DNA from: Agromyces larvae
GTDB taxonomy: Bacteria > Actinomycetota > Actinomycetes > Actinomycetales > Microbacteriaceae
Length of the DNA: 64,000 nucleotides
Direction of reading: 5' to 3'
Assembly (NCBI RefSeq): GCF_022811705.1
Contig: NZ_CP094528.1
Location: 2,604,001-2,668,000, forward strand
Part shown: piece after piece, positions 38,255 to 58,050 of the stretch
Layout: every line of letters begins with the position of its first letter
How positions within the stretch are numbered: position 1 is the stretch's first letter
Position numbers and translations under genes: made by a program
The notes under the pieces: generated by a model
What the model was told of the DNA's origin: nothing
The model's input: the letters and a program-made list of their open reading frames with translations, nothing else
Databases searched by the model: none

Positions 38255-38301
38255 TTCTCGATCGTGGCGGGCGAACGGATGGCGGACGATATCCTGACGT
38301 G

Positions 38302-39570
38302 ATGGACGACAGCACCGCGGCCGCGCGAACCGACGCACCGGCCGATGTCGCCCCGACCCCCGCCCCGACCCCCGCCCCGGCGCCGGCCGAGCGACGACGC
38401 CGGCCCCGCGACCGCCGGCGGCAGATCGAAGCCGCGGCCGCGGTCGCCTTCGCCCAGCGCGGGTACCACGGCGTGAGCATGCAGGAGGTCGCGCACGCCG
38501 TCGGCATCTCGGCGCCCGCGCTCTACCGGCACTTCCCGAACAAGTACGTGCTGTTCTCGACCTCGGCCCTGGCCCTCGCGCACGGGCTCGTCGAGGCCAC
38601 CGACGAAGCCGCGACCGGGGGTCACGCCGACCCGGCCTCCGCTCGGCGCGAACTCGGCGACATCCTCGCGGCAACGATCAGCACCACCATCGACTCGCGG
38701 GCCTCGGGCGGGATCTACCGGTGGGAGGGCCGGTACCTGACCGACGACGACCGGGCACGACTGCACGACGACCTGCGCACCCTGCGGCACCGCGTCGCCG
38801 ACCCGCTCGCGGTGCTGCGGCCCGACGCGAGCCCCGAACTGCTCGACCTCGCCTCGAGGGCGGCGCTCAGCGCGATCGCGTCCATCACCACCCACCGCAC
38901 CGCCGCGCCGACCGGCGCGATCCGCTCGCTGCTCGCCGACACGGCCCGCCGGTCGCTCACGGTCGATCCTGCTCCGGCCGACGATGCGCCCCCCATCGAC
39001 GCGGAGGGGCCCGGCGTGCGCCCGCGCCGCCGCAAGGATCTGCTCGTGCAGGCCGCGATCTCGCTGTTCGCCGAGCGCGGCTACCACGAGGTCACCATCG
39101 AGGACATCGCGCGCGCGGTCGACCTGACCCCGTCGGGGGTGTACCGCCACTTCGCCGGCAAGTCCGACCTGTTGCGCGCGGCCTGCGAACAGGCGGCGGC
39201 CGTGCTCGCCGCCGCCGCCGACGACGCACTCGCCAGGGAGCATCCGGCCGATGCCCTGGCGACCCTGTCCAACGCGTACCTGCGCTTCGCCGTACGCGAC
39301 CGCGAGCTGATGGACGTCTACACCGCCGAGGTCGCCGCCCTCGACCCCGACGACCAGCGCCGCCTGCGCACGCTGCAACGCAACCACGTCGCCGAATGGG
39401 TCGAGGTGCTGCGGCGCGTGCGACCCGAGCTCTCGGCACGCGACGCGAAGTTCCTCGTGCACGCGGGCTTCAACGTGGTCGCCGACCTCAGCGTGACGCT
39501 GCGGCGCGAAGATCCCGCCGAGGCGATCCGTCGCATCCGACCGTTCCTGAACGCCGCGCTCGGAGCGTGA
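38302..39570 (+). CDS. TetR-type regulator with two complete TetR units
   Basis: A 422-residue regulator. After a Pro/Ala-rich tail, the first helix-turn-helix lies at about 40-85 (AFAQRGYHGVSMQEVAHAVGISAPALYRHFPNKY), with its own ligand domain to about 220. A second helix-turn-helix lies at about 245-290 (ISLFAERGYHEVTIEDIARAVDLTPSGVYRHFAGKS) with a second C-terminal domain. The polypeptide is thus a fused dimer, which could bind a palindrome as a monomer. GTG at 38299 and ATG at 38302 are adjacent alternatives. It is divergent from the acyl-CoA synthetase and probably senses an acyl-CoA. Confidence 0.85.
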   Translation: MDDSTAAARTDAPADVAPTPAPTPAPAPAERRRRPRDRRRQIEAAAAVAFAQRGYHGVSMQEVAHAVGISAPALYRHFPNKYVLFSTSALALAHGLVEATDEAATGGHADPASARRELGDILAATISTTIDSRASGGIYRWEGRYLTDDDRARLHDDLRTLRHRVADPLAVLRPDASPELLDLASRAALSAIASITTHRTAAPTGAIRSLLADTARRSLTVDPAPADDAPPIDAEGPGVRPRRRKDLLVQAAISLFAERGYHEVTIEDIARAVDLTPSGVYRHFAGKSDLLRAACEQAAAVLAAAADDALAREHPADALATLSNAYLRFAVRDRELMDVYTAEVAALDPDDQRRLRTLQRNHVAEWVEVLRRVRPELSARDAKFLVHAGFNVVADLSVTLRREDPAEAIRRIRPFLNAALGA

Positions 39571-41210: not shown

Positions 41211-41831
41211 ATGGCCGACGAGCAGTCCACGATCGCGACATCGAAGTCGGCGCGCACGCGCGAGCGCATCCTCGACGCGGCCGCCGCGGTGCTCTCCCGC
41301 AAGGGCTACGCCGGCACCCGGCTCTCGGAAGTGGCCGATGCGGCCGGCGTGCAGGCCCCCGCGATCTACTACTACTTCGGCTCGCGCGACGAACTCGTCG
41401 AAGAGGTCATGTGGGCGGGCGCCAACAGCGTGCGCACCCACGTCGAGAGCGAGATCGCGGCGATGCCGACCACCGCGACCGCGATGGATCGCCTGCTCAC
41501 CGCGGTCGAGGCGCACCTGCGCTACGAACTCGAGATCTCGGACTACGCGACCGCATCGATCCGCAACGCCGGGCACGTGCCCGAGCACCTGCGCGTGCGG
41601 CCCGCCGCCGAAGAGGCGCTCTACAGCCGCATGTGGCGCGACCTGCTCGTCGAAGCTCAGGAGTCGGGCGAAGTGCGCGCCGACCTCGACATCAACGTGT
41701 TCCGCCTGCTCCTGCTCGGCGCGCTGAACTGGGTCGTCGAGTGGTGGAATCCCCGCACCCGGTCATTCGACGACCTCGTGCGCACGGCGTGCGACATGGT
41801 GCGGCGCACCGCGGGCACCGGGTCGGACTGA
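41211..41831 (+). CDS. TetR-family regulator
   Basis: A 206-residue repressor with an N-terminal helix-turn-helix (about 15-60, ERILDAAAAVLSRKGYAGTRLSEVADAAGVQAPAIYYYFGSRDEL) and a ligand-binding helical domain of the TetR_C class common beside acyl-CoA genes. The ATG at 41211 follows GGAGAGGAG; an ATG at 41190 lies inside the palindrome and is less likely. It is divergent from aldehyde dehydrogenase and convergent with the fatty-acid operon, so it probably regulates one of these. Confidence 0.87.
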   Translation: MADEQSTIATSKSARTRERILDAAAAVLSRKGYAGTRLSEVADAAGVQAPAIYYYFGSRDELVEEVMWAGANSVRTHVESEIAAMPTTATAMDRLLTAVEAHLRYELEISDYATASIRNAGHVPEHLRVRPAAEEALYSRMWRDLLVEAQESGEVRADLDINVFRLLLLGALNWVVEWWNPRTRSFDDLVRTACDMVRRTAGTGSD

Positions 41832-41851: not shown

Positions 41852-42826
<975 letters not shown>

Positions 42827-45016
42827 CTACTCGTACGTCTCGCCGGCGTCGGCCTTCGCGAGGAGCGAGGCCGGTGGCAGGAATCGGTCGCCGTAGGCGG
42901 CGGCGAGCTCGCGGGCACGGGCTGCGAAGCCCGGCAGCCCGCCCTCGTACTGGTTGACGTACTGCAGCACGCCGCCCGTCCAGGCGGGGAACCCGATGCC
43001 GTAGATCGAGCCGATGTTCGCGTCGGGCACGCTCGTCAGCACGCCCGCGTCGAGGCAGGCGATGGTGTCGAGCGCCTCGGCGAACAGCATCCGCTCCTGA
43101 AGGTCGACGAGCGGCAGCACGGTGCGACCCGAGCCGAACCGCTCGCGCAGCCCCGGCCAGAGGCCGACCCGCCTGCCGTCGGCGTCGTACTCGTAGAACC
43201 CGCGGCGGGCTCGGCGGCCGGGGCGGTCGGCTTCGTCGACCATCCAGTCGACGACGGCCTCGGCCGGGTGCGGCACCCACACGGCTCCGGATGCCTCGTC
43301 GGCCGCACGCGTCTCGTTGCGGATCTTCTGGGTCAGCGTGAGCGTCAGCTCGTCGAGGAGCTGCAGTGCCCCGGCGGGGTATCCGGCCTGGAGCGCCGCC
43401 TGCTCGACCGAGGCGGGCTCGACGCCCTCGCCGACCGCGGCGACCGCCTCGTCGATGAACCGCCCGATCACGCGCGAGGTGAAGAATCCGCGCGCGTCGT
43501 TCACGACGATCGGGGTCTTGCGGATCTGCTGCACGAAGTCGAAGGTCTTCGCGAGCACGGCGTCGCTCGTGTTGCGCCCGCGCACGATCTCGACGAGCGG
43601 CATCTTGTCGACCGGCGAGAAGAAGTGGATGCCGATGAAGTCGTCGGGTCGCGAGACCCCTTCGCTCAGCAGCGTGATCGGCAGGGTCGAGGTGTTCGAG
43701 CCGAGCACGGCGTCGGGCGAGACCACGTCCTGGATCTGCTGGAACACCTCCTGCTTCACGGGCACCGACTCGAAGACCGCCTCGATCACGATGTCGACGC
43801 CGGCGAAGTCGGCGGGGTCGTCGGTCGGCGTGATGCGCGCGAGCAGCGCCTCGGACTTCTCGGCGGTGGTCGCACCGCGCGCGAGCGCCTTGTCCTCGAG
43901 GGCGCGGGCGTAGTCCTTGCCGCGTTCGGCGGCCTCCAGCGAGACATCCTTCAGCACGACCTCGATGCCGGCCTTCGCGCCCACGTACGCGATCGCCGCG
44001 CCCATCATGCCCGCGCCCAGCACACCGAGCTTGGTCGCGGTGAACCGGGGGTAGCCGTCGGGGCGGCTGCCGCCCGCGTTGATGTGCTGCAGGTCGAAGA
44101 AGAACGCCTTGATCATGTTCTTCGCCACCTGCCCGTGCATGAGCTGCACGAGATAGCGGGTCTCGATGGTCGACGCGGTCTCGAAGTCGACGTACGCCCC
44201 CTCGACCGCGGCGGCCATCGCCGCACGCGGCGCGGGCATCGGCGCACCCTTCAGCTGCTTGCGCAGCAGTGCCGGCATGGCCGGGAGCATCCCCGCCAGC
44301 GACGGCGAGGTGGGCGCACCGCCCGGCAGGCGGAAGCCCTTCTCGTCCCACGGCTTCACGGGCGCGGGGTTGGCGGCGATCCAGGCGCGCGCCCGGGCGT
44401 CGAGCTCGGCGAGCGGCGCGAGCTCGTCGACGATGCCGACCGCGAGCGCGTCGTCGGCGCGGAACCGCGTCGCCGGCAGGATGACGTCGGCGAGCGCCTT
44501 CTGCAGCCCGAGCATGCGCACCAGGCGGGTGATGCCGCCGCCGCCGGGCAGCAGCCCGAGCGACACCTCGGGCACGCCGAACTGCGCGCCGCGCACGTCG
44601 CTCGCCGCGATGCGGTGATGGGCGGCGAGGGCGACCTCGAGGCCGCCGCCGAGCGCGGTGCCGTTCAGGGTCGCGACGACGGGCTTGCCCAGTCGTTCGA
44701 GCCGGCGCAGCAGCGACTTGACGTGCTCGATGTGCGCGGTCTCCTCCGCCGAGCGCGCCGGGTCGGCCGCGCGCAGCAGGTTGAGGTCGCCGCCGGCGAA
44801 CCAGCTCTTCTTCGCCGACGCCAGGATGACGCCGGCGATGGCGTCGCGCTCGGCCTCGAGCCGGTCGACGGTCGCCTCCAGGGCGGCGGTGAAGTGCGCG
44901 TTCATGGTGTTCACCGCACTGTCGGGGTCGTCCATCGTGATGGTGACGATGCCGTCCGCGTCGACGTCCCACGCGTAGCCCGCGTACACGTCGACGATCT
45001 CACTCGTGATGCTCAT
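42827..45016 (-). CDS. FadB-like enoyl-CoA hydratase/3-hydroxyacyl-CoA dehydrogenase
   Basis: A 729-residue bifunctional beta-oxidation enzyme. The N-terminal crotonase domain (about 1-300) has SWFAGGDLNLL and NGTALGGGLEVALAAHHRIA with an oxyanion hole. The dehydrogenase part starts at KLGVLGAGMMGAAIAYVGAKAG (about residue 330), has the catalytic His in FIGIHFFSPVDKMPLVEI, and two C-terminal helical domains follow. It works with the adjacent thiolase as the last two cycles of beta-oxidation. Start at 45016, 11 bases after the thiolase stop. Confidence 0.93.
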   Translation of the reverse strand: MSITSEIVDVYAGYAWDVDADGIVTITMDDPDSAVNTMNAHFTAALEATVDRLEAERDAIAGVILASAKKSWFAGGDLNLLRAADPARSAEETAHIEHVKSLLRRLERLGKPVVATLNGTALGGGLEVALAAHHRIAASDVRGAQFGVPEVSLGLLPGGGGITRLVRMLGLQKALADVILPATRFRADDALAVGIVDELAPLAELDARARAWIAANPAPVKPWDEKGFRLPGGAPTSPSLAGMLPAMPALLRKQLKGAPMPAPRAAMAAAVEGAYVDFETASTIETRYLVQLMHGQVAKNMIKAFFFDLQHINAGGSRPDGYPRFTATKLGVLGAGMMGAAIAYVGAKAGIEVVLKDVSLEAAERGKDYARALEDKALARGATTAEKSEALLARITPTDDPADFAGVDIVIEAVFESVPVKQEVFQQIQDVVSPDAVLGSNTSTLPITLLSEGVSRPDDFIGIHFFSPVDKMPLVEIVRGRNTSDAVLAKTFDFVQQIRKTPIVVNDARGFFTSRVIGRFIDEAVAAVGEGVEPASVEQAALQAGYPAGALQLLDELTLTLTQKIRNETRAADEASGAVWVPHPAEAVVDWMVDEADRPGRRARRGFYEYDADGRRVGLWPGLRERFGSGRTVLPLVDLQERMLFAEALDTIACLDAGVLTSVPDANIGSIYGIGFPAWTGGVLQYVNQYEGGLPGFAARARELAAAYGDRFLPPASLLAKADAGETYE

Positions 45017-45027
45017 GCGTGTTCTCC

Positions 45028-46236
45028 TCACACCCGCTCGATGACCGTTGCGATACCCATGCCGGCGCCGACGCACAGCGTCGCGAGCCCGCGACGCAGG
45101 TCGCGCCGCTCGAGTTCGTCGAGCAGCGTGCCCAGGATCATCGCGCCGGTGGCGCCGAGCGGATGCCCCAGGGCGATCGCCCCGCCGTTGACGTTGACGT
45201 TCTCGTGGGGGATGCCGAGGTCCTTCTCCCACTTCATGACGACCGACGCGAACGCCTCGTTCAGCTCGAACAGGTCGATGTCGTCGACCGTGAGCCCGGC
45301 CTTCTCGAGCGCCTTGCGGGTCGCGGGCGTCGGGCCGGTGAGCATGATCGTCGGGTCGGAGCCGGTGACCGCGGTCGACACGATGCGGGCGCGCGGGGCG
45401 AGCCCGAGGCGTTCGCCGATCTCGGGGCTGCCGATCAGCATGAGCGCGGCGCCGTCGACGATGCCCGACGAGTTCGCGGCGGTGTGCACGTGGCGCACCC
45501 GCTCGACGTGGTGGTACTTCTGCAGCGCGACCGCGTCGAAACCCGCCTCGGCGCCGGGGCGCTCGAACGCGGGCGGCAGCTCGGCGAGCGTCGCGACGGT
45601 CGACCCCGGCCGGCGGTGCTCGTCGGTGTCGAGCACGGTCACGCCGTTCTGGTCTTTCACGGGCACGACCGACTTGGCGAACCATCCGTTGCGCCATGCT
45701 TCGTCGGCGCGGCGCTGCGACTCGACCGCGAACGCGTCCACGTCCTCGCGGCTGAAGCCCTCGATCGTGGCGATCAGGTCGGCGCCGATGCCCTGCGGCA
45801 CGAAGTACAGGTCGTAGTTCGTCGTCGGGTCCTGGGCGTACGCGCCGCCGTCGGAGCCGATCGGCACCCGCGACATCGATTCGACGCCGCCGGCGAGGAT
45901 GAGCTGGTCGAATCCGCTCGCGACCTTCTGCGCCGCGGTGTTCACCGCTTCGAGGCCCGATGCGCAGAATCGGTTGAGCTGCACGCCGGCGACCGTCTCG
46001 GGCAGCCCGGCGACGAGGGCCGCGGTGCGCGCGATGTCGCCGCCCTGCTCGCCGACCGGCGAGACGACGCCGAGCACGATGTCGTCGATGAGCTGCGCGT
46101 CGAGCGACGGGTTGCGCTCCTGCAGCGCGTCGATGAGGCCGACGACGAGGTCGACCGGCTTGATGCCGTGCAGCGCGCCGCCGCGGTTGCGGCCGCGCGG
46201 TGTGCGCACCGCGTCGTAGATGTACGCGTCGGTCAT
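45028..46236 (-). CDS. Acetyl-CoA acyltransferase (thiolase)
   Basis: A 402-residue thiolase cleaving 3-oxoacyl-CoA to acetyl-CoA and a shortened acyl-CoA. The acyl-accepting cysteine is in [11 protein letters not shown], with the C-terminal [19 protein letters not shown] and the second cysteine in [17 protein letters not shown] precedes the ATG at 46236. The operon with the FadB-like enzyme suggests FadA function (3-ketoacyl-CoA) rather than acetoacetyl-CoA synthesis. Confidence 0.93.
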
Positions 46237-46250: not shown

Positions 46251-47411
46251 TCAGAGTCCGAGGCTCCGGCCGACGATCTCTTTCATGATCTCGGTCGTGC
46301 CGCCGTAGATGGTGGTGATGCGCGCGTCCTCGTAGTCGCGCGCGATGCGGTACTCGCGCATGTAGCCGTACCCGCCGTGCAGTTGCAGGCACCGGTTCAC
46401 GATGTCGACGTACTGCTCGGTGGTGAGGAACTTCGCCGCGGCCGCGTCTTCGGCCGACAGCTCGCCGCGGTTGTGCAGCCGCAGGCAGTGGTCGAGGTAG
46501 GCGCGGCTCGCGCGCGTGGCGGTCACCATGTCGGCGAGCTCGAACCGGGTGTTCTGGAACGAGCCGATCGGGCGGCCGAACGCCTCCCGCTCCTTCGCGT
46601 AGGCGATGGTGCGCTCGAGCACGCCCTCGCTGGAGGCGACCGCGGCGGCGGCGATCGAGATGCGCTCCTGCGGGAGGTTGCGCATGAGGGCGGCGAAGCC
46701 GGTGCCCTCGGCGCCGAGCAGGTTCTCGACCGGCACGCGCACGTTCTGGAAGACCAGCTCGCTGGTGTCCTGCGCGTGCAGCCCGATCTTCTCGAGGTTG
46801 CGCCCGCGGGTGAACCCGGGGGTGTCGGCTTCGATCACGAGCAGGCTGAGACCGCGGTGCGGGTCGTCGCCCGTGCGCACCGCGGTGGCGACGAGGTCGG
46901 CGTTCTGCCCGTTCGAGATGAAGATCTTCGAGCCGTTCACGACGTAGTGGTCGCCGTCGCGCACCGCGCTGGTGCGGATGCCTGAGAGGTCGCTGCCCGT
47001 GCCCGGTTCGGTCATCGCGACCGCGACGACGAGCTCGCCCGCGGCGATGCCCGGCAGCCAGCGCGCCTTCTGCGCGTCGTCGGTGAGGTCGGTGAAGTAC
47101 GGGATGACGATGTCGTTCGACAGGGCGATGCCGGCCATGCCCGACGACACCGGATTGCGGGCGAGCTGTTCGCCCATGATCGCGTTGAAGCGGAAGTCGT
47201 CGGTGCCGCCGCCGCCGTACTCCTCGGGGATGCCGAAGCCGAGGATGCCGGCCTCGGCGGCCTTCGTGAAGAGGTCGCGGTCGACGCGGCCCTCGCGATC
47301 CCAGCGGTCGGCGTTCGGTCGGGCGTGCTGCTCGACGAACGCGTCGACGATCTCGCGGAACTGTTCGTGCTCGTCCTCGTAGAGGTCGCGCTGTCCGATG
47401 ACACCGGCCAT
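46251..47411 (-). CDS. Acyl-CoA dehydrogenase
   Basis: A 386-residue FAD enzyme introducing the alpha-beta double bond. [15 protein letters not shown] and the flavin/acyl contacts around [12 protein letters not shown] are present. The C-terminal motif reads IYGGTTEI; the Gly replaces the Glu that is the base in medium-chain enzymes, a pattern of the long-chain type in which the base lies elsewhere. First gene of the leftward operon leading to thiolase, FadB-like enzyme and nitronate monooxygenase. Confidence 0.92.
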
Positions 47412-47570: not shown

Positions 47571-48500
47571 ATGGCCATCACGGAGACCGCCGGCTCACCC
47601 GGCGCACGGTTCGCGGGCCGCGTCGCCGTCGTGACGGGGGCGAGCCGGGGCATCGGGCTCGCCATCGCCGCGCGACTGCTCGACGAGGGCGCCCGGGTGC
47701 TGCTCACCGCCCGCTCGGAGGACGGCCTCGCCGCCGCCCGCGACGCGCTGGGCGGGCGCGACGCGCTGGGCGGGCGCGACGTGCCCGACGACGGCGCAGG
47801 CACCGCCGGCCTCGCCGCCGCCCGCGACGCGCTGGTCGGGCGCGAGGCGCTGGGCGGGCGCGACGTGCCCGACGACGGCGCAGGCACCGCCGGCCTCGCC
47901 GGGCGCATCCGCACCGTCGCCGGCCGTGCCGACGACCCCGAGCACCGGCGCACCGCGATCCGCACCGCGGTCGACGCGTTCGGCGGGGTCGACGTGCTGG
48001 TGAACAACGCCGGCATCAACCCGCTGTACGGGCCGCTGGCCGAGCTCGACCTCGACGCGGCGCGCAAGGTGCTCGAGGTGAACGTGCTCGGCACGCTCAG
48101 CTGGACCCAGGAGGCGCTTTCGGCCGGCCTCGGCGATCGGCCGGGCGCCGCGGTGCTCAATCTCTCGTCGGTCACCGGCCAGGTGCCCTCGCCGGGCATC
48201 GGCTGGTATGGCGTGAGCAAGGCGGCCGTATCGCATCTCACGACGACGCTCTCGGTCGAGCTGGCACCGCGCGTCCGCGTCAACGCGCTCGCACCCGCGG
48301 TCGTGAAGACCCGCTTCGCGCGCGCCCTGTACGAGCACGACGAGCCCGGCGTCGCGGCCCGCTACCCGCTCGGCCGGCTCGGCGAGCCCGAGGATGCCGC
48401 GGCCGCCGCCGCGTACCTCTGCTCCGACGAGGCGGCCTGGGTGACCGGCCAGGTGCTCACGCTCGACGGCGGCCTGCTCGCGGCGGGAGGCGTGGCGTGA
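47571..48500 (+). CDS. SDR-family oxidoreductase with an internal duplication
   Basis: A 309-residue NAD(P)-dependent short-chain dehydrogenase. Cofactor motif TGASRGIG (about 22-29), NNAG (about 145), active-site Ser in LNLSSVTG, and YGVSK with Tyr and Lys. An 84-bp direct repeat (47724-47807, 47808-47891) doubles 28 residues (GLAAARDALGGRDALGGRDV...) in the loop between the cofactor motif and the next strand, making it about 50 residues longer than usual. It opens the operon with an ACAD, a kinase, etfBA and prpDBC. It could reduce a 4-oxoacyl-CoA, as LvaD does. Confidence 0.88.
   Translation: MAITETAGSPGARFAGRVAVVTGASRGIGLAIAARLLDEGARVLLTARSEDGLAAARDALGGRDALGGRDVPDDGAGTAGLAAARDALVGREALGGRDVPDDGAGTAGLAGRIRTVAGRADDPEHRRTAIRTAVDAFGGVDVLVNNAGINPLYGPLAELDLDAARKVLEVNVLGTLSWTQEALSAGLGDRPGAAVLNLSSVTGQVPSPGIGWYGVSKAAVSHLTTTLSVELAPRVRVNALAPAVVKTRFARALYEHDEPGVAARYPLGRLGEPEDAAAAAAYLCSDEAAWVTGQVLTLDGGLLAAGGVA
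47724..47891. repeat. 84-bp tandem duplication in the SDR gene
   Basis: Two adjacent 84-bp units (47724-47807 and 47808-47891) differ at only a few positions. Within the first, the 18-mer GCGCTGGGCGGGCGCGAC is itself repeated. Both lie in frame and keep the gene open. Confidence 0.9.
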
Positions 48501-49729
48501 ACGCCGGGGCGGATGCCTCCGCGCTCCGCGCGCGCACGCGTGCGTTCATCCGCGAGGCGGTCATCCCCGCGGAACCGCCCGCCGGCACACCGCTCGCCGC
48601 CGACGTGCTCGCCGCGCTCCGCGGCGCCGCCCGCGAGGCCGGGGTCTTCGCCCCGCACGTGCCCGCCCGCCTGGGCGGCGGCGGGCTGCCGCTCGCCGAG
48701 TGGTCGCCCGTGTTCCAGGAGGCCGGCTACTCGCTGATCGGGCCGGCCGTGCTCAACTGCATGGCCCCCGACGAGGGCAACATGTACCTGCTCGAGCGCA
48801 TCGCGGACGACGACCAGCAGCAGCGCTACCTCGCCCCGCTCGCCGCCGGGCTCACCCGCTCGTGCTTCGCGATGACCGAGCCGCACCCGGGCGCCGGCTC
48901 CGACCCGGCCGCGCTGGCCGCCTCGGCCCGCCGGGTCGACGGCGGCTGGGTCGTCAGCGGTCGCAAACGGTTCATCTCGGGCGCCGAGGAGGCCGACTTC
49001 GCGATCGTCATGGCGCGCACCCCCGAGCTCGGGCCCGAGGCCGCGACGATGTTCCTCGTGCCGATGGGCGCCGAGGGCCTCACCCTCGGGCACCGGATCC
49101 GCACCATGGAGACCGCGATCACGGGCGGGCACCCGCACGTCGACCTCGACGACGTGTTCGTCGCCGACGCCGACGTGCTCGGCACCCCGGGTGAGGGGTT
49201 CCGGCACGCGCAGGTGCGGCTCGCGCCCGCGCGACTCACCCACTGCATGCGCTGGCTCGGGCTCGCCCGCAGAGCCCACGACACCGCGCTCGACCGGGTC
49301 GGCGCGCGCGAACTGTTCGGCAGCCGGCTCGCCGACCTCGGCATCGCGCAGACGCTGATCGCCGACTCCGAGATCGACCTCGCGACGTGCGACGCGATCA
49401 TCGACCGGGCCGTCGGAGCGCTGACCGTCGACGAGCGGGCGGGCGCCGCACTCTCGTCCATCGCGAAGGTGCACTGCGCCGAGGCCGTGTACCGCGTCAT
49501 CGACCGGGCCGTGCAGCTCTGCGGCGGCGACGGGGTCACCCTCGAGCTCCCCCTCATCGCCTGGCTCAACGAGGTGCGCCCGTTCCGCGTCTACGACGGC
49601 TCGAGCGAGACCCACCGCATGGCGATCGCCCGCCGCGCGTCGTCACGGCGGCGCCGCGAGCGCGAGGCCGGCGCGCCGCGGCTCGACGTGCCCGCCGGCG
49701 CGCGCGATGCGAGCGAGGCGGGCGCATGA
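48497..49729 (+). CDS. Acyl-CoA dehydrogenase, ACAD10/11-like
   Basis: A 410-residue FAD enzyme. FAMTEPHPGAGSDPAAL and GRKRFISGAEEADFA bind FAD and substrate; the C-terminal end reads VYDGSSETHRMAIARR, a variant of the usual YEGT base motif, as in ACAD10/11 relatives. The GTG start overlaps the SDR stop. In ACAD10/11 of animals and LvaC of Pseudomonas such enzymes remove phosphate from a 4-phosphoacyl-CoA rather than just oxidise. The neighbour encoding a kinase supports that role here, as an inference. Confidence 0.88.
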   Translation: MNAGADASALRARTRAFIREAVIPAEPPAGTPLAADVLAALRGAAREAGVFAPHVPARLGGGGLPLAEWSPVFQEAGYSLIGPAVLNCMAPDEGNMYLLERIADDDQQQRYLAPLAAGLTRSCFAMTEPHPGAGSDPAALAASARRVDGGWVVSGRKRFISGAEEADFAIVMARTPELGPEAATMFLVPMGAEGLTLGHRIRTMETAITGGHPHVDLDDVFVADADVLGTPGEGFRHAQVRLAPARLTHCMRWLGLARRAHDTALDRVGARELFGSRLADLGIAQTLIADSEIDLATCDAIIDRAVGALTVDERAGAALSSIAKVHCAEAVYRVIDRAVQLCGGDGVTLELPLIAWLNEVRPFRVYDGSSETHRMAIARRASSRRRREREAGAPRLDVPAGARDASEAGA

Positions 49730-50892
49730 CCGGGCTCACCTCGCTCCCCGACGGCCTCGACGTCGTGCAGACCGCCGACGAGGCATCCGCCTGCGACCGC
49801 CCGCCCCTGCTCGTGGTCGACGCGCTCGACCGCCGCCTCGACGACCTCGGCGTCGCCCCCGGCGCCCTCGCCTGGCGGCGCATCGGCGACGGCCAGTCGA
49901 ACGTCACCTTCGAACTGCACCGCGGCGGGCGGCGGCTGGTGCTCCGCCGCGGCCCGCGACCGCCGCTGCCGCCGTCGACGCACGACATGCTCCGCGAGGC
50001 CCGCATCCAGGCCGCGCTCGCCGCGCACGGGGTGCCGGTGCCGCGCATCCTCGCCGTATGCGACGACGATGCCGTGCTCGGCGTACCGTTCTACCTGATG
50101 GACTACGTCGACGGCGACGTGCTCACCACGTCGCTTCCCGCCGGGTACGAGACGCCCGAGGCGCGAGCGGCGACCGCGTACGCCGCGGTCGACGCGCTCG
50201 CCGACCTGCACGCCGTGCCGCTCGACGACGACGTCGCGGCGCTCGGCCGCCCCGACGGGTACCTCGCCCGGCAGGTGTCCCGGTTCGCCTCGCTGTGGCC
50301 GTCCGTCTCGCGCCGCGAGCTGCCGCTCGTCGACGAGCTCGCCGCCCGACTCGCCGAGCGTCTGCCCGTATCGCAGCGGGCCTCGGTCGTGCACGGCGAC
50401 TTCCGACTCGGCAACCTCATGTTCGCCGCGCCCGGCGAGATCGCCGCCATCCTCGACTGGGAGATGGCGACCCTCGGCGACCCGCTCGCCGACCTCGGCT
50501 ATCTCGCCGCCACGTACACCGAGCCCGGTGCGGGCGGGGCCGACTCCGCGGCATCCACCGTCATGGACCTCACCCCCGCGACCGCCGAACCGGGCTTCCC
50601 CACCCGCGCCGAGCTCGTCGCACGCTACGAGGAACGCACCGGGCTGGATGCCTCGGAGCTGGCCTGGTACGAAGCCCTCGCGCTGTGGAAGGCCGCCGTG
50701 TTCTGCGAGGCGATCCGCACCCGCTGGCTCGACGGCCAGCGGCCCGGCGACACGTTCGGTCCGCGGCTCGAACACGGCGTGCCCGCCCTGCTCGACGCGG
50801 CCGCGGCGGCACTCGAGCACGACACCGGCGCGCCCCGCGACACCGCCGCGCCCCGCGACACCGCCCACGCGAAGGAAGGAACTCCGCGATGA
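49726..50892 (+). CDS. APH-family phosphotransferase (ACAD10/LvaA-like)
   Basis: A 388-residue aminoglycoside-phosphotransferase-fold kinase. ATP-site glycine motif in GDGQSNVTFEL, catalytic loop VVHGDFRLGNLMF and metal site AILDWEMATLGDPLADLGYL. This is the class fused to or adjacent to ACAD10/11-type dehydrogenases, not an antibiotic-resistance enzyme. It overlaps the dehydrogenase stop by 4 bases. The predicted substrate is a 4-hydroxyacyl-CoA. The C-terminal tail has the repeat APRDTAAPRDTA. Confidence 0.85.
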   Translation: MTGLTSLPDGLDVVQTADEASACDRPPLLVVDALDRRLDDLGVAPGALAWRRIGDGQSNVTFELHRGGRRLVLRRGPRPPLPPSTHDMLREARIQAALAAHGVPVPRILAVCDDDAVLGVPFYLMDYVDGDVLTTSLPAGYETPEARAATAYAAVDALADLHAVPLDDDVAALGRPDGYLARQVSRFASLWPSVSRRELPLVDELAARLAERLPVSQRASVVHGDFRLGNLMFAAPGEIAAILDWEMATLGDPLADLGYLAATYTEPGAGGADSAASTVMDLTPATAEPGFPTRAELVARYEERTGLDASELAWYEALALWKAAVFCEAIRTRWLDGQRPGDTFGPRLEHGVPALLDAAAAALEHDTGAPRDTAAPRDTAHAKEGTPR

Positions 50893-51665
50893 AGATCGTC
50901 GTCCTGGTGAAAGAGGTGCCCGACACCTACGGAGACCGCGTCCTCGACCTCGAGACCGGGCTCGCCCGGCGCGACGCGAGCGACCCGGTGCTCGACGAGA
51001 TCGGCGAACGCGCGCTCGAGGTCGCCCTCGCCTACGCCGACGCGCACGAGGGCACCGAGGTGGTCGCGCTCACGATGGCGCCCGCGTCCGCGGCGACCAC
51101 GCTGCGCAAGGTGCTCGCGATCGGCGCCGGCTCGGCCGTGCAGGTGGTCGACGACGCGCTCCTCGGCGCCGACCTCGGGCTCACCGCCGAGGTGCTCGCC
51201 GCCGCGATCCGGCGCGTCGGATTCGACCTCGTGCTCGCCGGCGACCGGTCGACCGACGGCGTCGGCGGCGTGCTGCCGGCCATGGTCGCCGAACTCCTCG
51301 ACGTGCCGAACGTCACCGGGCTCGACTCGGTCCAGATCGGCGACGGCGAGATCCGCGGCGTGCGGGCGACCGACGGGGCCACCGTACGGGTGTCGGCCGC
51401 GCTGCCCGCCGTCGCGTCGATCACCGAAGCGCTGCCCGACGCCCGGATCGCGACCTTCAAGGGCATCATGGCCGCCAAGAAGAAGCCGCTCGACGCCCTC
51501 GCGCTCGCCGACCTCGGCGTCGACGCCGACGACCCCGACGCGGCCCGCTCGATCATGCTGCGCGTCGCCCCCAGGCCGCCCCGGCAGGCCGGCGTGAAGA
51601 TCGTCGACGACGGCGACGCCGGCGTGCAGCTCGCCGACTTCCTGATCCAGAACCGACTCGCGTAG
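50889..51665 (+). CDS. etfB: Electron transfer flavoprotein, beta subunit
   Basis: A 258-residue subunit that binds AMP and takes electrons from acyl-CoA dehydrogenases. [13 protein letters not shown] opening and [22 protein letters not shown] are typical, with MAAKKKPLD near residue 195. The ATG overlaps the stop of the kinase gene by 4 bases, tying ETF to this pathway. It pairs with the next gene. Confidence 0.95.
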
Positions 51666-51681: not shown

Positions 51682-52683
51682 ATGACCGACCACGCACCCG
51701 ACTCGATCCTCGTGCTGCTCGACGTGACCCCCGCCGGGGCGCTCGCGAAGAGCTCCGCCGGGCTGCTCGGCGCCGCCGCCGCCGTGGGCACGCCCGTCGC
51801 GCTCATCGTCGGCGGCGGGGACGGCGGCGCCGGCTCCGGCGCCGACCCCGACGCGCTCGCTCGCGACGCGGCCGCCCTCGGCGCCGGCCGCGTGCTGCTC
51901 GCCCCGGGCGGCGACACGCTCACCGTGCCCGCCGCCGACGCACTCGAGGCGGCGGCCCGGCTCGTGCAGCCCGACGCGGTGCTCGTCTCGAACTCGCTCG
52001 ACGGCCGCGAAGCCGCCGCACGGTTCGCGGCACGCAGCCGCTCGGGCCTCGCGGTCGACGCCGTGGGCGTGTCCCGTGACGACGAGGGCGTGGTCGCGCA
52101 CCACTCGGTGTACGGCGGCGCGTACGACGTCGACTCGGCTGTGACGTTCGGCGCGCCCGTCATCACCGTGCGCCAGGGCGCGATCGACGCACGCGCCGCC
52201 GCGGTCGACGCCCCCGTCGTCGAGCGGCTCGAGGTGACGCCGTCGGGCCGACGCGGCGCGACCGTCGGCTCGGTCGACGCCGTCGAGGCGACCTCGACGC
52301 GGCCCGAGCTCCGCGGTGCCGCGAAGGTCGTGTCGGGCGGGCGGGGTCTCGGGTCCGAAGCGCAGTTCGAACTCGTCGGCCGGCTCGCCGACGCGCTCGG
52401 CGCGGCCGTCGGCGCGTCCCGTGCGGCGGTCGACGCGGGGTACATCCCGCATGCGCATCAGGTCGGCCAGACCGGGGTCTCGGTGTCGCCGCAGCTCTAC
52501 ATCGCGCTCGGCATCTCGGGTGCGATCCAGCACCGTGCCGGCATGCAGACGGCGAAGACCATCGTCGCGGTCAACACCGACGCCGACGCGCCGATCTTCG
52601 AGATCGCCGACTTCGGCGTCGTCGGCGACGTGTTCCGGGTGGTGCCGCAGCTCATCGAGGCCCTCGAGTCGAAGCGGGCGTGA
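51682..52683 (+). CDS. etfA: Electron transfer flavoprotein, alpha subunit
   Basis: A 333-residue FAD-binding subunit. The C-terminal domain has [17 protein letters not shown] and [39 protein letters not shown], the FAD-binding signature of the family, followed by [21 protein letters not shown]. The N-terminal domain is typical in length. Its stop overlaps the GTG start of the cytochrome b gene. Confidence 0.95.
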
Positions 52684-54305
52684 CGATGGCCACCTCGACG
52701 ACGAACCTCCGACGCGGGCTGCCGCGGGTGCCCGGCGGCGAGCCGTGGCCGCCCGCATCGGCTCCGGCCGTCGTCTCACCGGGTCTCGAGACGCGTGCTC
52801 CTTCGTCGCCCGCTCCTCGACCAGCGGAGGCGGGTTCGCCCGAGCGCAGCGAGGACGCGTCTCGCGACCTCGCGACCGGGTCCGCTCAGCCGGTACGGCC
52901 CCTGCGGCGCGGGCTCCCCCGGGTCGCGGGCGGCGAGCCCTGGCCGCCCGCATCGGCTCCGGCCGTCGTCTCACCGGGTCTCGAGACGCGTGCTCCTTCG
53001 TCGCCCGCTCCTCGACCAGCGGAGACGGGTTCGCCCGAGCGCAGCGAGGACGCGACTCGAGACCTCGCGACCGGGTCCTCGGATCCGGGACGCACGCCTC
53101 GTCCCACGGTGGCGGGCACGGTCGCGCTGCGCCGCGGGTTGCCGCGGGTCGCGGGCGGCGAGCCCTGGCCGCCGGCGGGGCTCGCACCCGAGCGCGCCGG
53201 GGCACCGATCGTCGCGGAAGCGGCCGACGTGAAGCCCGTGGCATCCGCCGAACCCGAGGCATCCGCCGAATCCGAGGCATCGGCCGAACCCGTGGCATCC
53301 GCCGAAGCATCCGTCGCGCCCGAACCGTCTGCGCGCGCGTCCGAAGCGCGGTCGACCGCGCCTTCGGCACCCGAACCCGTTCGCCACGGGCCGTTCACGA
53401 CGCGGCAGTGGGTCGGCGCGACCGCCGTCGGCCTCGTCGGCGTGCTGGTCGTCGCCGCGCTCGTCGTGCTGGGCACGCGGTGGTTGCTCGACCTGCCGGC
53501 CATGCGCGACTTCCTCGTCGCCTACCCCGGCGAGTACCGCCTGCCCGACGCGGCGCCCGTCGGGATCCCGGCATGGCTCGGCTGGCAGCACTTCTTCAAC
53601 GTGTTCCTGATGGCGTTGATCGTGAAGTCGGGCCTGCAGGTGCGCACCGAGCGCCGACCCAAGGCGCTGTGGGCGCCGAAGCGCGACCCGAAGGCGAAGA
53701 TCGGGCTGCCCGCCTGGTTCCACCAGTCGCTCGACGTGTTCTGGCTGGCGAACGGCGTGCTCTTCGTCGTGCTGCTCGCAGCGACCGGGCAGTGGATGCG
53801 CATCGTGCCGACGAGCTGGGAGGTGTTCCCGAACGCGCTGTCGGCGGCGCTGCAGTACGCCTCGCTCGACTGGCCGACCGAGAACGGTTGGGTGAACTAC
53901 AACTCGCTGCAGCAGCTCGCCTACTTCGCGACGGTGTTCCTCGCCGCCCCGCTCGCCGCGATCACGGGCTACCGCATGAGCATGTGGTGGCCGAAACGGC
54001 AGGGCGGGCTCGCCCGGGTCATCCCGATGGAGTGGGCTCGCCGGGTGCACTTCCCGGTGATGCTCTACTTCGTGGCGTTCACGGTCGTGCACGTGCTGCT
54101 CGTGTTCGCGACCGGGGCGCTGCGCAACCTGAACCACATGTACGCCGCGCGCGGCTCGGCCGACCCGACCGCCTCCGCCGACGACTGGACGGGGTTCTGG
54201 TTCTTCGCCGCATCGCTCGTCGTCATCGTCGGTGCCGTCGTGGCCGCTCGACCGCTGGTGCTCGCACCGATCGCCCGGCTGTTCGGCACCGTGACCGCCC
54301 GATAA
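52680..54305 (+). CDS. Membrane cytochrome b (FdhI/b561-like) with expanded N-terminus
   Basis: A 541-residue protein. Residues about 240-530 contain six predicted helices with histidines near [40 protein letters not shown], as expected for haem b ligands of the cytochrome b561/formate dehydrogenase gamma fold. Residues 1-235 are disordered: [16 protein letters not shown] occurs at 10, 75 and 150, and the first two units are 65 and 75 residues long and nearly identical, with the DNA between carrying a dispersed repeat. The start GTG (or ATG at 52686) overlaps the etfA stop. Position next to etfBA suggests it passes ETF electrons to quinone; no ETF:quinone oxidoreductase gene is in the window. 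Confidence 0.75.
52707..53174. repeat. Expanded repeat in the cytochrome b gene
   Basis: Two long units starting at 52707 and 52902 (with a shorter third at 53127) are nearly identical. Each of the long units contains TCTCGAGACGCGTGCTCC and CTCCTCGACCAGCGGAG, the paired parts of a dispersed element common in related genomes, here translated in frame. Confidence 0.85.
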
Positions 54306-54368: not shown

Positions 54369-55895
54369 ATGACCCAGCCCCATCCCACCCGTGTCCACCG
54401 CAGCGACGAGCACCTGCCGAAGGAGGGCCAGCTCGCGTGGCGCATCGCCGAGGTGGCCGCCGACCCCGTGGCCGTCGACGACGACGTGGTCGACATGATC
54501 GTGAACCGCGTGATCGACAACGCGGCGGTCGCCGCGGCATCCCTGACCCGTGCGCCCGTGATCGCCGCACGCAGCCAGGCGCTCTCGCACCCCGTCTCCA
54601 CCGGCGGCGCAGGCGCGACGGTGTTCGGTGCCGACGCCGTCAGGCGCACGAGCCCCGAGTGGGCGGCGTGGGCGAACGGGGTCGCGGTGCGCGAACTCGA
54701 CTTCCACGACACGTTCCTCGCGGCGGAGTACTCGCACCCGGGCGACAACATCCCGCCGATCGTGGCCGTCGCGCAGCATGTCGGCGCCGACGGCGCGGCG
54801 CTCGTGCGCGGCATCGCGACCGGGTACGAGATCCAGATCGATCTGGTGCGCGCCATCTCGCTGCACCGGCACAAGATCGACCACGTCGCGCACCTCGGGC
54901 CGTCGGCCGCGGCCGGCATCGGCACCTTGCTCGGGCTGCCGGTCGACACCGTGTACCAGGCGGTCGGGCAGGCGCTGCACACCACGACCGCGACGCGCCA
55001 GTCGCGCAAGGGCGAGATATCGACGTGGAAGGCGCACGCGCCCGCGTTCGCCGGGAAGATGGCGGTCGAGGCGGTCGACCGTGCGATGCGCGGCGAGACC
55101 AGCCCGTCGCCCATCTACGAGGGCGAGGACGGCGTGATCGCGTGGCTGCTCGACGGGGCGGATGCCTCATACGACGTCCCGCTGCCCGCACCCGGCGAGG
55201 CGAAGCGGGCGATCCTCGATTCGTACACGAAGGAGCACTCGGCCGAGTACCAGGCGCAGGCCTGGATCGACCTGGCCCGCAAGCTGCACACCGAGCGGCC
55301 CGACCTCGCCGACCCGTCCGCGATCGCATCGATCGTGCTGCACACCTCGCACCACACGCACTACGTCATCGGGTCGGGTGCGAACGACCCGCAGAAATAC
55401 GATCCGGATGCTTCGCGCGAGACGCTCGACCACTCGATCCCGTACATCTTCACCGTCGCCCTGCAGGACGGCGCGTGGCATCACGCTCACTCCTACGCGC
55501 CGGAACGCGCCCACCGACCCGACACCGTCGAACTCTGGAAGAAGGTCACCACGGCCGAGGACGCCGAGTGGACCCGCAGGTACCACTCCGACGACCCGAA
55601 CGAGAAGGCGTTCGGCGGTCGGGTGGTGATCAAGCTCGCCGACGGCGGCGAGATCGTCGACGAGATCGCGGTCGCGGACGCGCACCCGCTCGGTGCCTGC
55701 CCGTTCGCGCGGGCCGACTACGTGAAGAAGTTCCGCACCCTCGCCGAGCAGACCCTCGAAGCGGCCGAGATCGAGCGGTTCCTCGACCTCGCGCAGCGAC
55801 TGCCCCAGCTCACCGCCGACGAGGTGCGACAGCTCACGATCGTGGCTGCGCCCGGCGTGCTCACCGCCTTCCCCGCACCGACCGGGCTCTTCTGA
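54369..55895 (+). CDS. prpD: 2-methylcitrate dehydratase (MmgE/PrpD)
   Basis: A 508-residue enzyme of the 2-methylcitrate cycle, dehydrating 2-methylcitrate to 2-methyl-cis-aconitate. Ordered motifs: [47 protein letters not shown] and ASYDVP near the middle, and a C-terminal [19 protein letters not shown]. Length is as expected. It follows the cytochrome b gene after 63 bases and overlaps prpB by one base (TGATG), so it belongs to the same transcription unit. Confidence 0.94.
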
Positions 55896-56803
55896 TGTTG
55901 TATGCGAAGACTCCGGCGCATGAGAAGCGGCGTGCGTTTCGTGAGCGGCTCGCGTCGGGGGAGTTGTTGCGGTTCCCGGGTGCGTTCAACCCGTTGTCGG
56001 CGCGGTTGATCGAGCAGCGCGGGTTCGAGGGGGTGTACGTCTCGGGTGCGGTGCTCGCGGCCGATCTCGGGTTGCCCGATATCGGGTTGACCACGCTCAG
56101 CGAGGTCGCGGGGCGGGGTCGGCAGATCGCACGGATGACGGAGTTGCCGGCGATCATCGATGCGGATACCGGGTTCGGTGAGCCGATGAACGTGGCCCGC
56201 ACCGTGCAGGAGCTCGAGGACGCGGGCCTGGCCGGCCTGCATATCGAGGATCAGGTGAATCCGAAGCGGTGCGGGCACCTGGACGGGAAGCAGGTCGTGG
56301 ACCAGCACACCGCGCTGCAGCGCATCGCGGCCGCGGTCGACGCGCGCCGGGATGAGAACTTCTTGATCATGGCGCGTACCGATATCCGTGCGGTCGAGGG
56401 GTTGGATGCGGCGATCGACCGTGCGAAGGCGCTGGTGGATGCGGGTGCGGACGCGATCTTCCCCGAGGCGATGGCGACCCTGGCCGAGTTCGAAGCGGTC
56501 CGCAACGCGGTGGACGTGCCGTTGCTGGCGAACATGACCGAGTTCGGCAAGAGCGACCTGTTCACGGTCGACCAGTTGCGCGATGTGGGCATGAACCTGG
56601 TGATCTGGCCGGTCTCGCTGCTGCGCCTCGCGATGGGCTCCGCGATGCGCGGACTCGACGAACTCGAAGCATCCGGCTCGCTGCAAACGCAACTCGACCA
56701 GATGCAGCACCGCGCCGAGCTCTACGACCTCGTCGACTACCCCGGCTACAACCACTTCGACACCGACATCTACAACTTCACCATCACGAAGGAGCGACCG
56801 TGA
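55895..56803 (+). CDS. prpB: Methylisocitrate lyase
   Basis: A 302-residue TIM-barrel lyase cleaving 2-methylisocitrate to pyruvate and succinate. The active-site loop KRCGHLDGK, IIDADTGFGEP (metal-binding Asp) and ARTDIRAVEGLDAAIDRA are present. The first two thirds use codons unlike the neighbours (Leu TTG, Asp GAT, Arg CGT), while the last 200 bases return to CTC/CTG and GAC. This suggests that the front part came in by recombination. Its stop overlaps the GTG of prpC. Confidence 0.94.
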   Translation: MLYAKTPAHEKRRAFRERLASGELLRFPGAFNPLSARLIEQRGFEGVYVSGAVLAADLGLPDIGLTTLSEVAGRGRQIARMTELPAIIDADTGFGEPMNVARTVQELEDAGLAGLHIEDQVNPKRCGHLDGKQVVDQHTALQRIAAAVDARRDENFLIMARTDIRAVEGLDAAIDRAKALVDAGADAIFPEAMATLAEFEAVRNAVDVPLLANMTEFGKSDLFTVDQLRDVGMNLVIWPVSLLRLAMGSAMRGLDELEASGSLQTQLDQMQHRAELYDLVDYPGYNHFDTDIYNFTITKERP

Positions 56804-57996
56804 CCGCACCGACCGACATCAAGAAGGGGCTCGCCGGCGTCGTCGTCGACACGACGGCGATCTCGAAGGTCAACCCCGAGACGAACTCCCTGCTCTACCG
56901 GGGCTACCCGGTGCAGGAGCTCGCCGCGACCCAGCCGTTCGAGGCCGTGGCCCACCTGCTCTGGCACGGCGAACTGCCGACCGCCGACGAACTCGCCGAC
57001 CTGCGCCGCGAGGAGCGCGCCCACCGCGCCCTCGCCCCGCGCGTGCGCGCGGCCATCGACCTGCTGCCGCTCGACACGCACCCGATGGACGAGGTGCGCA
57101 CCGCGGTCAGCGTCATCGGCGCGATCGAGACCGCCGGCATCGACAGCGTGCTCGAGGTCGGCGGCAGCCCCGCCGACAACCTCGCGCGGAGCATCCGTCT
57201 GTTCGCCGCCCTGCCCGCGATCGTCGCCTACGGTCAGCGCCGCCGACGCGGACTCGAACCGATCGAACCGCGCGACGACCTCGACTACGCGGCGAACTTC
57301 CTCTGGATGACGTTCGGCGAAGAGGCCGACCCGGTCGTCGTCGACGCGTTCAACCGGTCGATGATCCTCTACGCCGAGCACTCGTTCAACGCCTCGACGT
57401 TCACGGCACGGGTGGTCACCTCGACGCTCAGCGACCTGCACTCGGCGGTCGTCGCCGCGATCGGCGCGCTGAAGGGGCCGCTGCACGGCGGCGCGAACGA
57501 AGCGGTGCAGCACACGCTCGACGAGATCGGCGACGCCTCCCGGGTCGGCGCGTGGCTCGACGACGCGCTCGCGCAGAAGCGCAAGATCATGGGGTTCGGC
57601 CACCGGGTCTACAAGCGCGGGGATTCGCGGGTGCCCACCATGCAGGCGGCCCTCGACACGCTCGTCGCCCACTACGACCGGCCGGATGTCGCGGAGCTGA
57701 CCCACGCGCTCGAAGCCGAGTTCGTCGCCCGCAAGGGCATCTACCCGAACCTCGACTTCCCGTCGGGGCCCGCGTACGCGCTCATCGGGTTCGACACGCT
57801 CACCTTCACGCCGCTGTTCGTCGCATCGCGCGTGACCGGGTGGACGGCGCACATCCTCGAGCAGGCCGCGTCGAACGCGCTCATCCGCCCGCTCTCGGCG
57901 TACGACGGGCCGGCCGAGCGGCACGTCGAGGGCTACGTGCCCGATGCCGCCGCCCTCGCGGCGGCCGAGCGGCCCGAGGAGGCGCTCGGGGCGTGA
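56800..57996 (+). CDS. prpC: 2-methylcitrate synthase (citrate synthase family)
   Basis: A 398-residue synthase condensing propionyl-CoA with oxaloacetate. Active-site motifs: HSFNASTFTARV, the catalytic GHRVYKRGDSR and the Asp region near the C-terminus. Co-operonic position with prpD and prpB supports methylcitrate rather than citrate synthesis. The GTG start follows AAGGAG and overlaps the prpB stop by 4 bases. Confidence 0.93.
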   Translation: MTAPTDIKKGLAGVVVDTTAISKVNPETNSLLYRGYPVQELAATQPFEAVAHLLWHGELPTADELADLRREERAHRALAPRVRAAIDLLPLDTHPMDEVRTAVSVIGAIETAGIDSVLEVGGSPADNLARSIRLFAALPAIVAYGQRRRRGLEPIEPRDDLDYAANFLWMTFGEEADPVVVDAFNRSMILYAEHSFNASTFTARVVTSTLSDLHSAVVAAIGALKGPLHGGANEAVQHTLDEIGDASRVGAWLDDALAQKRKIMGFGHRVYKRGDSRVPTMQAALDTLVAHYDRPDVAELTHALEAEFVARKGIYPNLDFPSGPAYALIGFDTLTFTPLFVASRVTGWTAHILEQAASNALIRPLSAYDGPAERHVEGYVPDAAALAAAERPEEALGA

Positions 57997-58016: not shown

Positions 58017-58050
58017 GAGACCCCGTTCGCCGTCAGGCGGGCGGGGTCTC
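58017..58050. terminator. Convergent terminator
   Basis: GAGACCCCG pairs with CGGGGTCTC around a 16-base loop between prpC and the convergent alcohol dehydrogenase. The right arm overlaps the last codons of the dehydrogenase gene. Confidence 0.6.

Follow-up and report, generated by a model that had tools for sequence, protein, structure and literature searches.

The stretch analysed here (the window) comprises 64,000 nucleotides of the Agromyces larvae genome, spanning C1:2604001-2668000 of a single 4.0-Mb contig, and has a GC content of 71%. At its centre of interest are three consecutive plus-strand genes, encoding a short-chain dehydrogenase/reductase (SDR), an enzyme of the acyl-CoA dehydrogenase (ACAD) fold and a kinase of the aminoglycoside phosphotransferase (APH) fold:

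47571..48500, plus strand: SDR family oxidoreductase, 309 aa (Pfam adh_short_C2, 1.3e-50); proposed LvaD-like 4-oxoacyl-CoA/4-hydroxyacyl-CoA oxidoreductase
48497..49729, plus strand: ACAD, 410 aa (Pfam Acyl-CoA_dh N/M/1); proposed to convert 4-phosphooxyacyl-CoA to 2-enoyl-CoA
49726..50892, plus strand: APH/ACAD11-type kinase, 388 aa (Pfam APH, 2.3e-47); proposed 4-hydroxyacyl-CoA kinase

An earlier reading of the letters and open reading frames (ORFs) alone (the sequence-only reading) had described these genes as an SDR, an ACAD10/11-like dehydrogenase and an APH-like kinase coupled by overlapping start and stop codons, and this is indeed what we found. The ACAD gene starts with a GTG inside a 4-bp GTGA overlap with the SDR stop codon, the ACAD and kinase genes share a 4-bp ATGA overlap, and the next gene, etfB, likewise begins within a 4-bp ATGA overlap with the kinase stop. 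Kinase, ACAD and SDR are therefore adjacent on one strand, as in an lva (levulinate catabolism) operon. The SDR carries the motifs YGVSK and TGASRGIG, as seen in an alignment with related SDRs. Its gene also contains an 84-bp in-frame tandem duplication (47723..47901, plus strand; 2.1 copies, 97% match by Tandem Repeats Finder), which forms an extra insert missing from all 7 related SDRs aligned.

The residues of the ACAD point to an unusual chemistry. In mouse ACAD11, Ala or Leu substitution of R626, H634 and R637 was the most disruptive, and D753 is catalytic, according to the available part of the published study (PMC12440821). R241, H249, R252 and D367 of the window ACAD align to these four residues, and the first three all fall on helix 234-270 in a structural model of the protein. 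With an Asp base and an Arg/His/Arg set predicted to share one helix, the window ACAD qualifies in the wide sense as a 4-phosphoacyl-CoA ACAD; an ordinary ACAD would have a catalytic Glu and no phosphate-site Arg/His/Arg, and we found Asp367 and the R/H/R residues instead. The full set (R/H/R/D) is retained in 108 of the 110 fetched ACADs that scored best with the window ACAD as query; near-copies and copies from the genome itself are counted here, and two organisms apparently appear twice (L019/L030 and L020/L032). The two proteins lacking the set are matches of 28% and 32% identity.

The kinase similarly presents the residues of a 4-hydroxyacyl-CoA kinase of the LvaA and ACAD10/11-domain type, as judged by alignment: H223-G-D225, N230, D244-W-E246, R90-E91 and R182, of which D225, N230 and R182 correspond to D220, N225 and R176 of ACAD11, the DWE motif being present as well. 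The HGD-N and DWE motifs, the helix C Arg-Glu pair and the Arg equal to R176 are invariant in 49/49 close relatives. The helix C Arg is kept beside its Glu, its numbering along the PDB chain disagreeing with the printed R86. The kinase scores 180 bits to 9o56, 143 to 3dxp and 140 to ACAD11 (8v3v); the ACAD11 kinase and 9o56 are absent among the 50 matches given in the VIA list for this protein, which excludes nothing.

We next considered the related loci, taken as the best 80 of 568 from a scan of named genomes (L029-L108). These loci belong to Actinomycetota, Chloroflexota, Myxococcota, Alpha- and Betaproteobacteria, one Sporosarcina and one assembly labelled Klebsiella, and a plasmid search adds Thermus and Rhodococcus. 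In 60 of the 80, a same-strand kinase gene lies no more than 500 bp from the ACAD gene; these comprise 22 of the 24 loci with at least 58% identity to the window ACAD and 38 of the 56 below this level. In the two exceptions of the closer set the kinase is found elsewhere in the locus; among the 20 loci without a near kinase, 16 have none detectable by tblastn, one of them a Pfam miss. As a control, we counted kinases beside all ACADs of the fetched loci that had at least 1200 bp on either side, near-copies included: a kinase adjoins 95/122 R/H/R/D ACADs, as compared to 1/20 other ACADs, the latter coming from loci fetched for this family. Because the pair recurs so widely among the 80 loci and a kinase is so rarely found beside other ACADs, the SDR-ACAD-kinase module represents more than a chance arrangement.

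An SDR gene is found up to 400 bp upstream of the ACAD gene in 18 of the 24 closer loci, and Microbacterium Leaf288 (L029) shows the same fadE-SDR-ACAD-kinase arrangement as the window. The order ligase-SDR-ACAD-kinase, assigned by best hit, recurs in five sister operons (L038, L041, L043, L047 and L049); gene orders of sister loci depend on the ORF caller, which overlooked the neighbours of a second prpD in the genome, and island genes were searched for by tblastn. A major facilitator superfamily (MFS) transporter gene stands just after the kinase or after a following thiolase in L034 (where there is no SDR), L041 (after the thiolase), L043 and L047, the last scoring best with a metabolite/H+ symporter model (350 bits, cut-off 443), and a TetR gene lies near by in L034 and L167. 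By their predicted gene content, sister operons with ligase, SDR, ACAD, kinase and MFS transporter are close to the lva set. More broadly, 20 of 396 genomes drawn evenly from the phylum (own genome counted, only 4 candidates scored per genome) have a match to the window ACAD at 1e-75, and among 60 genomes, again counting its own, a window-like ACAD (E <=1e-60) was found in 11 and an ACAD11-type one (E <=1e-100) in 18.

The window ACAD is nevertheless distinct from the enzymes on which this chemistry was described. In a tree of 76 of the 178 rows, the R/H/R/D ACADs cluster together, separate from other ACADs (Shimodaira-Hasegawa-like approximate likelihood ratio support 99); the ACAD11-type rows form one group (100), with the window ACAD in a separate one. 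The tree was built by a quick method, which flagged long branches in the set of other ACADs. Its rows comprise 4 references, one in three of 108 and one in two of 31 R/H/R/D proteins, the 2 odd ones and some of the others; LvaC and ACAD11 themselves lie outside it, and its labels give the best-scoring query and are coarse, so that clade membership was taken from the tree itself. The window ACAD scores 159 bits to human ACAD11, versus 448 for the ACAD11-type ACAD of the same genome, and it does not fall inside the ACAD11-type clade, as an ACAD11/LvaC ortholog in the narrow sense would. On this sequence evidence it is a member of a second, deeply separated clade. For comparison, ACAD10 and ACAD11 are given as 62% and 56% identical to LvaC in the accessible text of PMC11342911.

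The ACAD11-type protein of this genome belongs to a second module at C1:2.390-2.394 Mb (L015, G000:C1:2378000-2397900). Like the window pair, it combines a kinase and an R/H/R/D ACAD, the kinase gene being followed by that of the ACAD; it differs in that the ACAD is of the ACAD11 type (36% identical to the window ACAD), an AMP ligase gene is adjacent, and the ORF table places no SDR directly beside the pair. TetR-type and thioesterase genes precede it, and another ACAD and a thiolase are encoded on the opposite strand.

The window module is embedded in a larger island of mostly catabolic genes, which we list here together with one candidate operator:

36559..38136, minus strand: FadD5-like acyl-CoA ligase (607 bits to FadD5, 8r2q; NF005857 FadD5 711 bits, cut-off 733; NF004837 long-chain ligase 487 bits, cut-off 476)
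38238..38253, plus strand: candidate operator GTGAAT-N4-ATTCAC (palindrome search)
38299..39570, plus strand: TetR-type regulator with two TetR_N (DNA-binding domain) stretches
39592..41085, minus strand: aldehyde dehydrogenase (ALDH)
41211..41831, plus strand: TetR regulator, conserved together with the island
41852..42820, minus strand: nitronate monooxygenase (NMO)/FabK-like flavoprotein
42827..45016, minus strand: fadB/fadJ-type enoyl-CoA hydratase/3-hydroxyacyl-CoA dehydrogenase (best NCBIfam models below cut-offs)
45028..46236, minus strand: fadA-type thiolase (NF006090, 688 bits, above cut-off)
46251..47411, minus strand: fadE, ordinary acyl-CoA dehydrogenase without the R/H/R/D signature (Pfam), divergent from the SDR gene
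50889..51665, plus strand: etfB, electron-transfer flavoprotein (ETF) beta (Pfam ETF)
51682..52683, plus strand: etfA, ETF alpha (Pfam ETF_alpha, 3.8e-33)
52680..54305, plus strand: membrane protein with a weak cytochrome b561 match (28 bits, cut-off 30.1)
54369..55895, plus strand: prpD, 2-methylcitrate dehydratase of high-GC Gram-positive type (NF042438, 854.7 bits, below cut-off 950; Pfam MmgE_PrpD)
55895..56803, plus strand: prpB, methylisocitrate lyase (TIGR02317, 406 bits, above cut-off; Pfam PEP_mutase)
56800..57996, plus strand: prpC, 2-methylcitrate/citrate synthase (NF010636, 597 bits, above cut-off; Pfam Citrate_synt)
58033..59667, minus strand: zinc alcohol dehydrogenase (ADH) fused to GXWXG and DUF4334 domains

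The sequence-only reading had placed etfBA and then prpDBC after the module, with the propionyl-CoA route in the same operon. All these genes do run on the same strand, but the membrane gene intervenes between etfA and prpD and is followed by a 63-bp gap ahead of prpD, so that a single transcript from the SDR gene to prpC is plausible and the operon can be claimed only to that extent. The membrane gene has candidate starts at 52680, 53109 and 53442, and since a 195-bp tandem repeat (52706-53078, 93% match) lies near its 5' end, its true start is uncertain; it adjoins etfBA in four Agromyces relatives (L163-L166).

Three sites of the palindrome GTGAAT-N4-ATTCAC were found, the listed one and those at 41122-41137 (1 mismatch) and 59696-59711, as against 0.38 expected in shuffles, with 1 of 100 shuffles reaching three. 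Located upstream of the paired ligase and TetR genes, the paired TetR and ALDH genes and the ADH gene at 58-60 kb, respectively, they likely mark the island as a regulon, the palindrome being the putative operator of an island TetR regulator. The gap between fadE and the SDR gene contains none of the three sites, a scripted palindromic-operator search of this gap found none, and a guessed second operator motif gave 0 matches; an A/T-rich element common to relatives was noticed, by eye only, upstream of fadE.

Island-level linkage is also observed in Agromyces relatives. In one of them (G001, L169), tblastn places prpD (77%), prpB (69%), prpC (71%), kinase (42%) and ACAD (53%) in one stretch with fadE (77%), thiolase (78%), fadB (75%), NMO, TetR and ALDH, an SDR of another kind lying between prpC and the kinase; the link of the module to prpDBC that the sequence-only reading had drawn thus recurs, contiguously, in one relative. 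In G006 (L164) and G017 (L163), a single 20-kb stretch holds ACAD, fadE, thiolase, fadB, etfBA, the cytochrome-like gene, ligase and ALDH, and in G006 and G024 prpC appears beside the island at the edge of the fetched stretch. In G024 (L165) the island lacks an ACAD of this kind, which is instead encoded elsewhere, in a ligase-SDR-ACAD-kinase run (L167). Homologues of the ADH-GXWXG-DUF4334 protein, full or short, occur in the islands of four relatives (L163, L164, L165 and L168); in L164 and L165 the ORF table shows just a 168-aa homologue where the fused ADH would be. The island appears to be absent from G004, the closest genome by its ACAD11-type protein (98%), because it gave no ACAD match at 1e-60, no etfA match at 0.001 and only weak fadB matches (best 33% identity).

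Outside this group the picture differs. By tblastn within the fetched stretches, etfBA (at least 40% identity) and prpDBC (at least 50%) were found in 0 of the 80 related loci; as far as seen, linkage to the propionyl-CoA and ETF genes is thus a feature of Agromyces. Two Nannocystis loci (L061 and L064) encode, beside an ACAD-kinase pair, a FadB 72%, a thiolase 80-81% and a TetR protein 68-69% identical to those of the window; this likeness to a member of the Myxococcota suggests transfer between phyla.

We also considered whether the window prpDBC is the genome's unique copy, and rejected this, as tblastn shows a second prpD/prpB/prpC set at ~C1:3.283 Mb (L177, G000:C1:3277000-3293000), 82%, 97% and 71% identical, with prpC ~6 kb away from prpB. 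The 97% of prpB, compared to the lower values of prpD and prpC, hints that prpB alone underwent recent duplication or gene conversion. No methylmalonyl-CoA mutase, the alternative propionyl-CoA route, was found in the genome, and propionyl-CoA therefore needs the methylcitrate cycle.

Taken together, the layout of the genes, the families to which they belong, the conservation of key residues, the recurrence of the pair and the island-level linkage in relatives lead us to consider it probable that the three genes form a bypass, which admits 4-hydroxy and 4-oxo acyl-CoAs to beta-oxidation through a kinase and a phosphate-eliminating ACAD. The sequence-only reading had also seen a 4-hydroxyacyl-CoA module feeding beta-oxidation, and the key residues, the pairing of ACAD and kinase across phyla and the linkage to fadE, fadA and fadB support it. 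What each enzyme does, in which order and on what substrate is predicted from sequence, and would be as follows. A CoA ligase would activate the acid, the SDR would reduce 4-oxoacyl-CoA to 4-hydroxyacyl-CoA, and the kinase would phosphorylate the 4-hydroxyl. In the ACAD, FAD and Asp367 would abstract the alpha proton while R241, H249 and R252 would hold the phosphate during its elimination, and 2-enoyl-CoA would form without net oxidation or reduction. The rest of the chain would be degraded by FadB and FadA, whose genes are divergent from the module, joined in subsequent turns by FadE and ETF, and prpDBC would handle propionyl-CoA when the acid yields it. For the characterized enzymes, the available text of PMC11342911 reports that no added electron acceptor is needed and proposes a hydride transfer to FAD, loss of phosphate with formation of a dienoyl-CoA, and then return of the hydride. 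By its residues the window ACAD may use the same FAD-hydride mechanism, in which case etfBA would serve FadE and not the window ACAD.

Which acid enters this bypass is a separate question. The island itself speaks for a general route for 4-hydroxy or 4-oxo fatty acids of medium, long or branched chains, operating within fatty-acid degradation, and we regard this as a serious possibility, held at somewhat less than even confidence. It would account for the FadD5-like ligase, FadE, FadA, FadB, ETF, ADH and ALDH in one island that recurs in Agromyces relatives, and it agrees with the contexts of other relatives: the pair of Rhodococcus sp. ZPP has as neighbours genes whose annotations name acyclic terpene utilization (AtuA family) and subunits of acyl-CoA carboxylase, and the Thermus operon is assigned to phenylacetate/fatty-acid metabolism in the accessible portion of PMC7022988. 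Mouse ACAD11, moreover, enables catabolism of longer-chain 4-hydroxy acids (PMC12440821, text available in part). Weighing against it, the ACAD11-type module of the genome, with its own ligase and thiolase, could already do the job. Also against it, home-made 10-hydroxy acids formed via oleate hydratase were rejected as a source, since no oleate hydratase was found in the genome and 10-hydroxystearate is accordingly not home-made.

A related proposal, which we make tentatively, is that the second clade is a second, as yet undescribed subfamily of phosphate-eliminating ACADs with its own recruited kinases, acting on 4-hydroxyacyl-CoAs not used by LvaC or ACAD11 (for example branched, terpenoid or otherwise substituted chains). 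With separate substrates, the retention of both kinds of ACAD in one genome would be accounted for. The subfamily so conceived might, with similar reserve, span Actinomycetota, Deinococcota, Chloroflexota, Myxococcota, and Alpha- and Betaproteobacteria.

Levulinate was the substrate type named by the sequence-only reading, and this part of it is not borne out in that form. The acid, we think, is a 4-hydroxy or 4-oxo acid, for which a C5 compound (levulinate or 4-hydroxyvalerate) is one candidate, and a rather doubtful one. We similarly think it unlikely that the genes serve levulinate/4-hydroxyvalerate catabolism proper, as a functional copy of lvaEDCA yielding acetyl-CoA and propionyl-CoA, the latter consumed by prpDBC. 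The gene roles do match lvaE-D-C-A as given in the text available from PMC6692424; prpDBC lies in the same gene run, contiguously so in G001 and with prpC at the edge in G006 and G024; the need for the methylcitrate cycle would fit; and the sister operons with an MFS transporter suit a small soluble acid. However, the ACAD belongs to a clade other than that of ACAD11/LvaC, an ACAD11-type module exists elsewhere in the genome, the island ligase is closest to FadD5 and is accompanied by ADH and ALDH, and no such transporter was recognised in the island. The link to prpDBC also loses weight, as tblastn found neither etfBA nor prpDBC in the fetched stretches of the 80 loci, the genome has a second prp set, and prpDBC is also used for odd-chain and anteiso acids. 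Finally, the Rhodococcus context (AtuA, carboxylase) and that of Thermus argue against a C5-only view. Overall, the observation on the genes is confirmed and the enzyme class is well supported, while levulinate is not established.

Two further readings concern the kinase. It could act on another hydroxyl, for instance a tertiary or distal one as in the 25-hydroxysteroid kinase, with the ACAD being an ordinary dehydrogenase. That kinase (9fsg and 9ft5, by entry titles) is also of the APH fold and phosphorylates a lipid hydroxyl, but its known substrate is a 25-hydroxysteroid and the window kinase is distant from it, with 61 bits as compared to 136-180 bits to ACAD11-type kinases; together with the Asp at the base position and the phosphate-site residues of the ACAD, this makes such a role improbable. 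An aminoglycoside phosphotransferase conferring antibiotic resistance is hardly conceivable: the match to the APH(3') model that could be cited for it, besides the APH fold, is weak (41.6 bits, cut-off 205), the recurrent neighbour is a catabolic ACAD, and the CoA-site Arg of ACAD11 is conserved.

The probable bypass for 4-hydroxy and 4-oxo acyl-CoAs can be compared with several known systems. With the lva system it shares a set of enzyme roles, the tight linkage of kinase, ACAD and SDR, and an ACAD with an Asp base and R/H/R site. It differs in that its ACAD is outside the ACAD11-type clade, its ligase (36559-38136) lies outside the operon although within the island, TetR genes rather than an LvaR-type regulator are near the module, the genes are joined to fad, etf and prp genes, and no DUF6285 protein, a possible LvaB partner, was found in the genome. 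A small DUF6285 protein accompanies some divergent members (L093, L098, L108, L134 and L172), with a histidine phosphatase gene following in L093 and L172; this protein may be an LvaB-type partner of the kinase, the equation of LvaB with DUF6285 being suggested by size and place. In the corresponding P. citronellolis region, the text available from PMC6692424 reports that no lvaB homologue was found.

Mammalian ACAD10 and ACAD11 similarly unite kinase and ACAD partners and share the four ACAD residues and the catalytic residues of the kinase with the window proteins, which are however encoded by separate overlapping genes with no fusion, the ACAD being 28-30% identical by structural alignment. 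The Thermus thermophilus HB8 pTT27 operon TTHB023-TTHB014 shares the ligase-SDR-ACAD-kinase order and has an ACAD 47% identical to that of the window; its kinase, in contrast, is just 30% identical, and DUF6285 and histidine phosphatase genes follow there. TTHB015-TTHB014, matched by gene order, are its ACAD-kinase pair in the PfmR operon, and in a pfmR mutant they are up by log2 1.68 and 1.86 (adjusted p ~0.02), with a smaller, non-significant rise of the seven preceding genes besides pfmR, TTHB022-TTHB016, in the data seen from PMC7022988.

The sequence-only reading had thought an actinobacterial version of the pathway to be new. Among the papers listed in literature searches, no title or abstract start tells of such a version or of this ACAD clade, so that the claim is fair on this footing, though this is weak evidence of absence; the genes themselves, on the other hand, are not rare in actinobacterial genomes. 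Levulinic acid is produced by an Amycolatopsis (PMC12282000) and was tried as a polyhydroxyalkanoate precursor in Rubrobacter (PMC8146576), with no pathway genes in the portions of either text available.

The function of ACAD10/11 and of LvaA/LvaC was assigned only recently, and many bacterial members of the clade are still named "acyl-CoA dehydrogenase family protein" and "phosphotransferase family protein". Should the enzymes of this clade carry out the same chemistry with other acids, the catabolic gene clusters of actinobacteria and of further phyla could be re-read. Degradation of gamma-lactones and of 4-hydroxy and 4-keto acids would then become predictable from genomes, and the clade would offer new enzymes for converting levulinate and related feedstocks.

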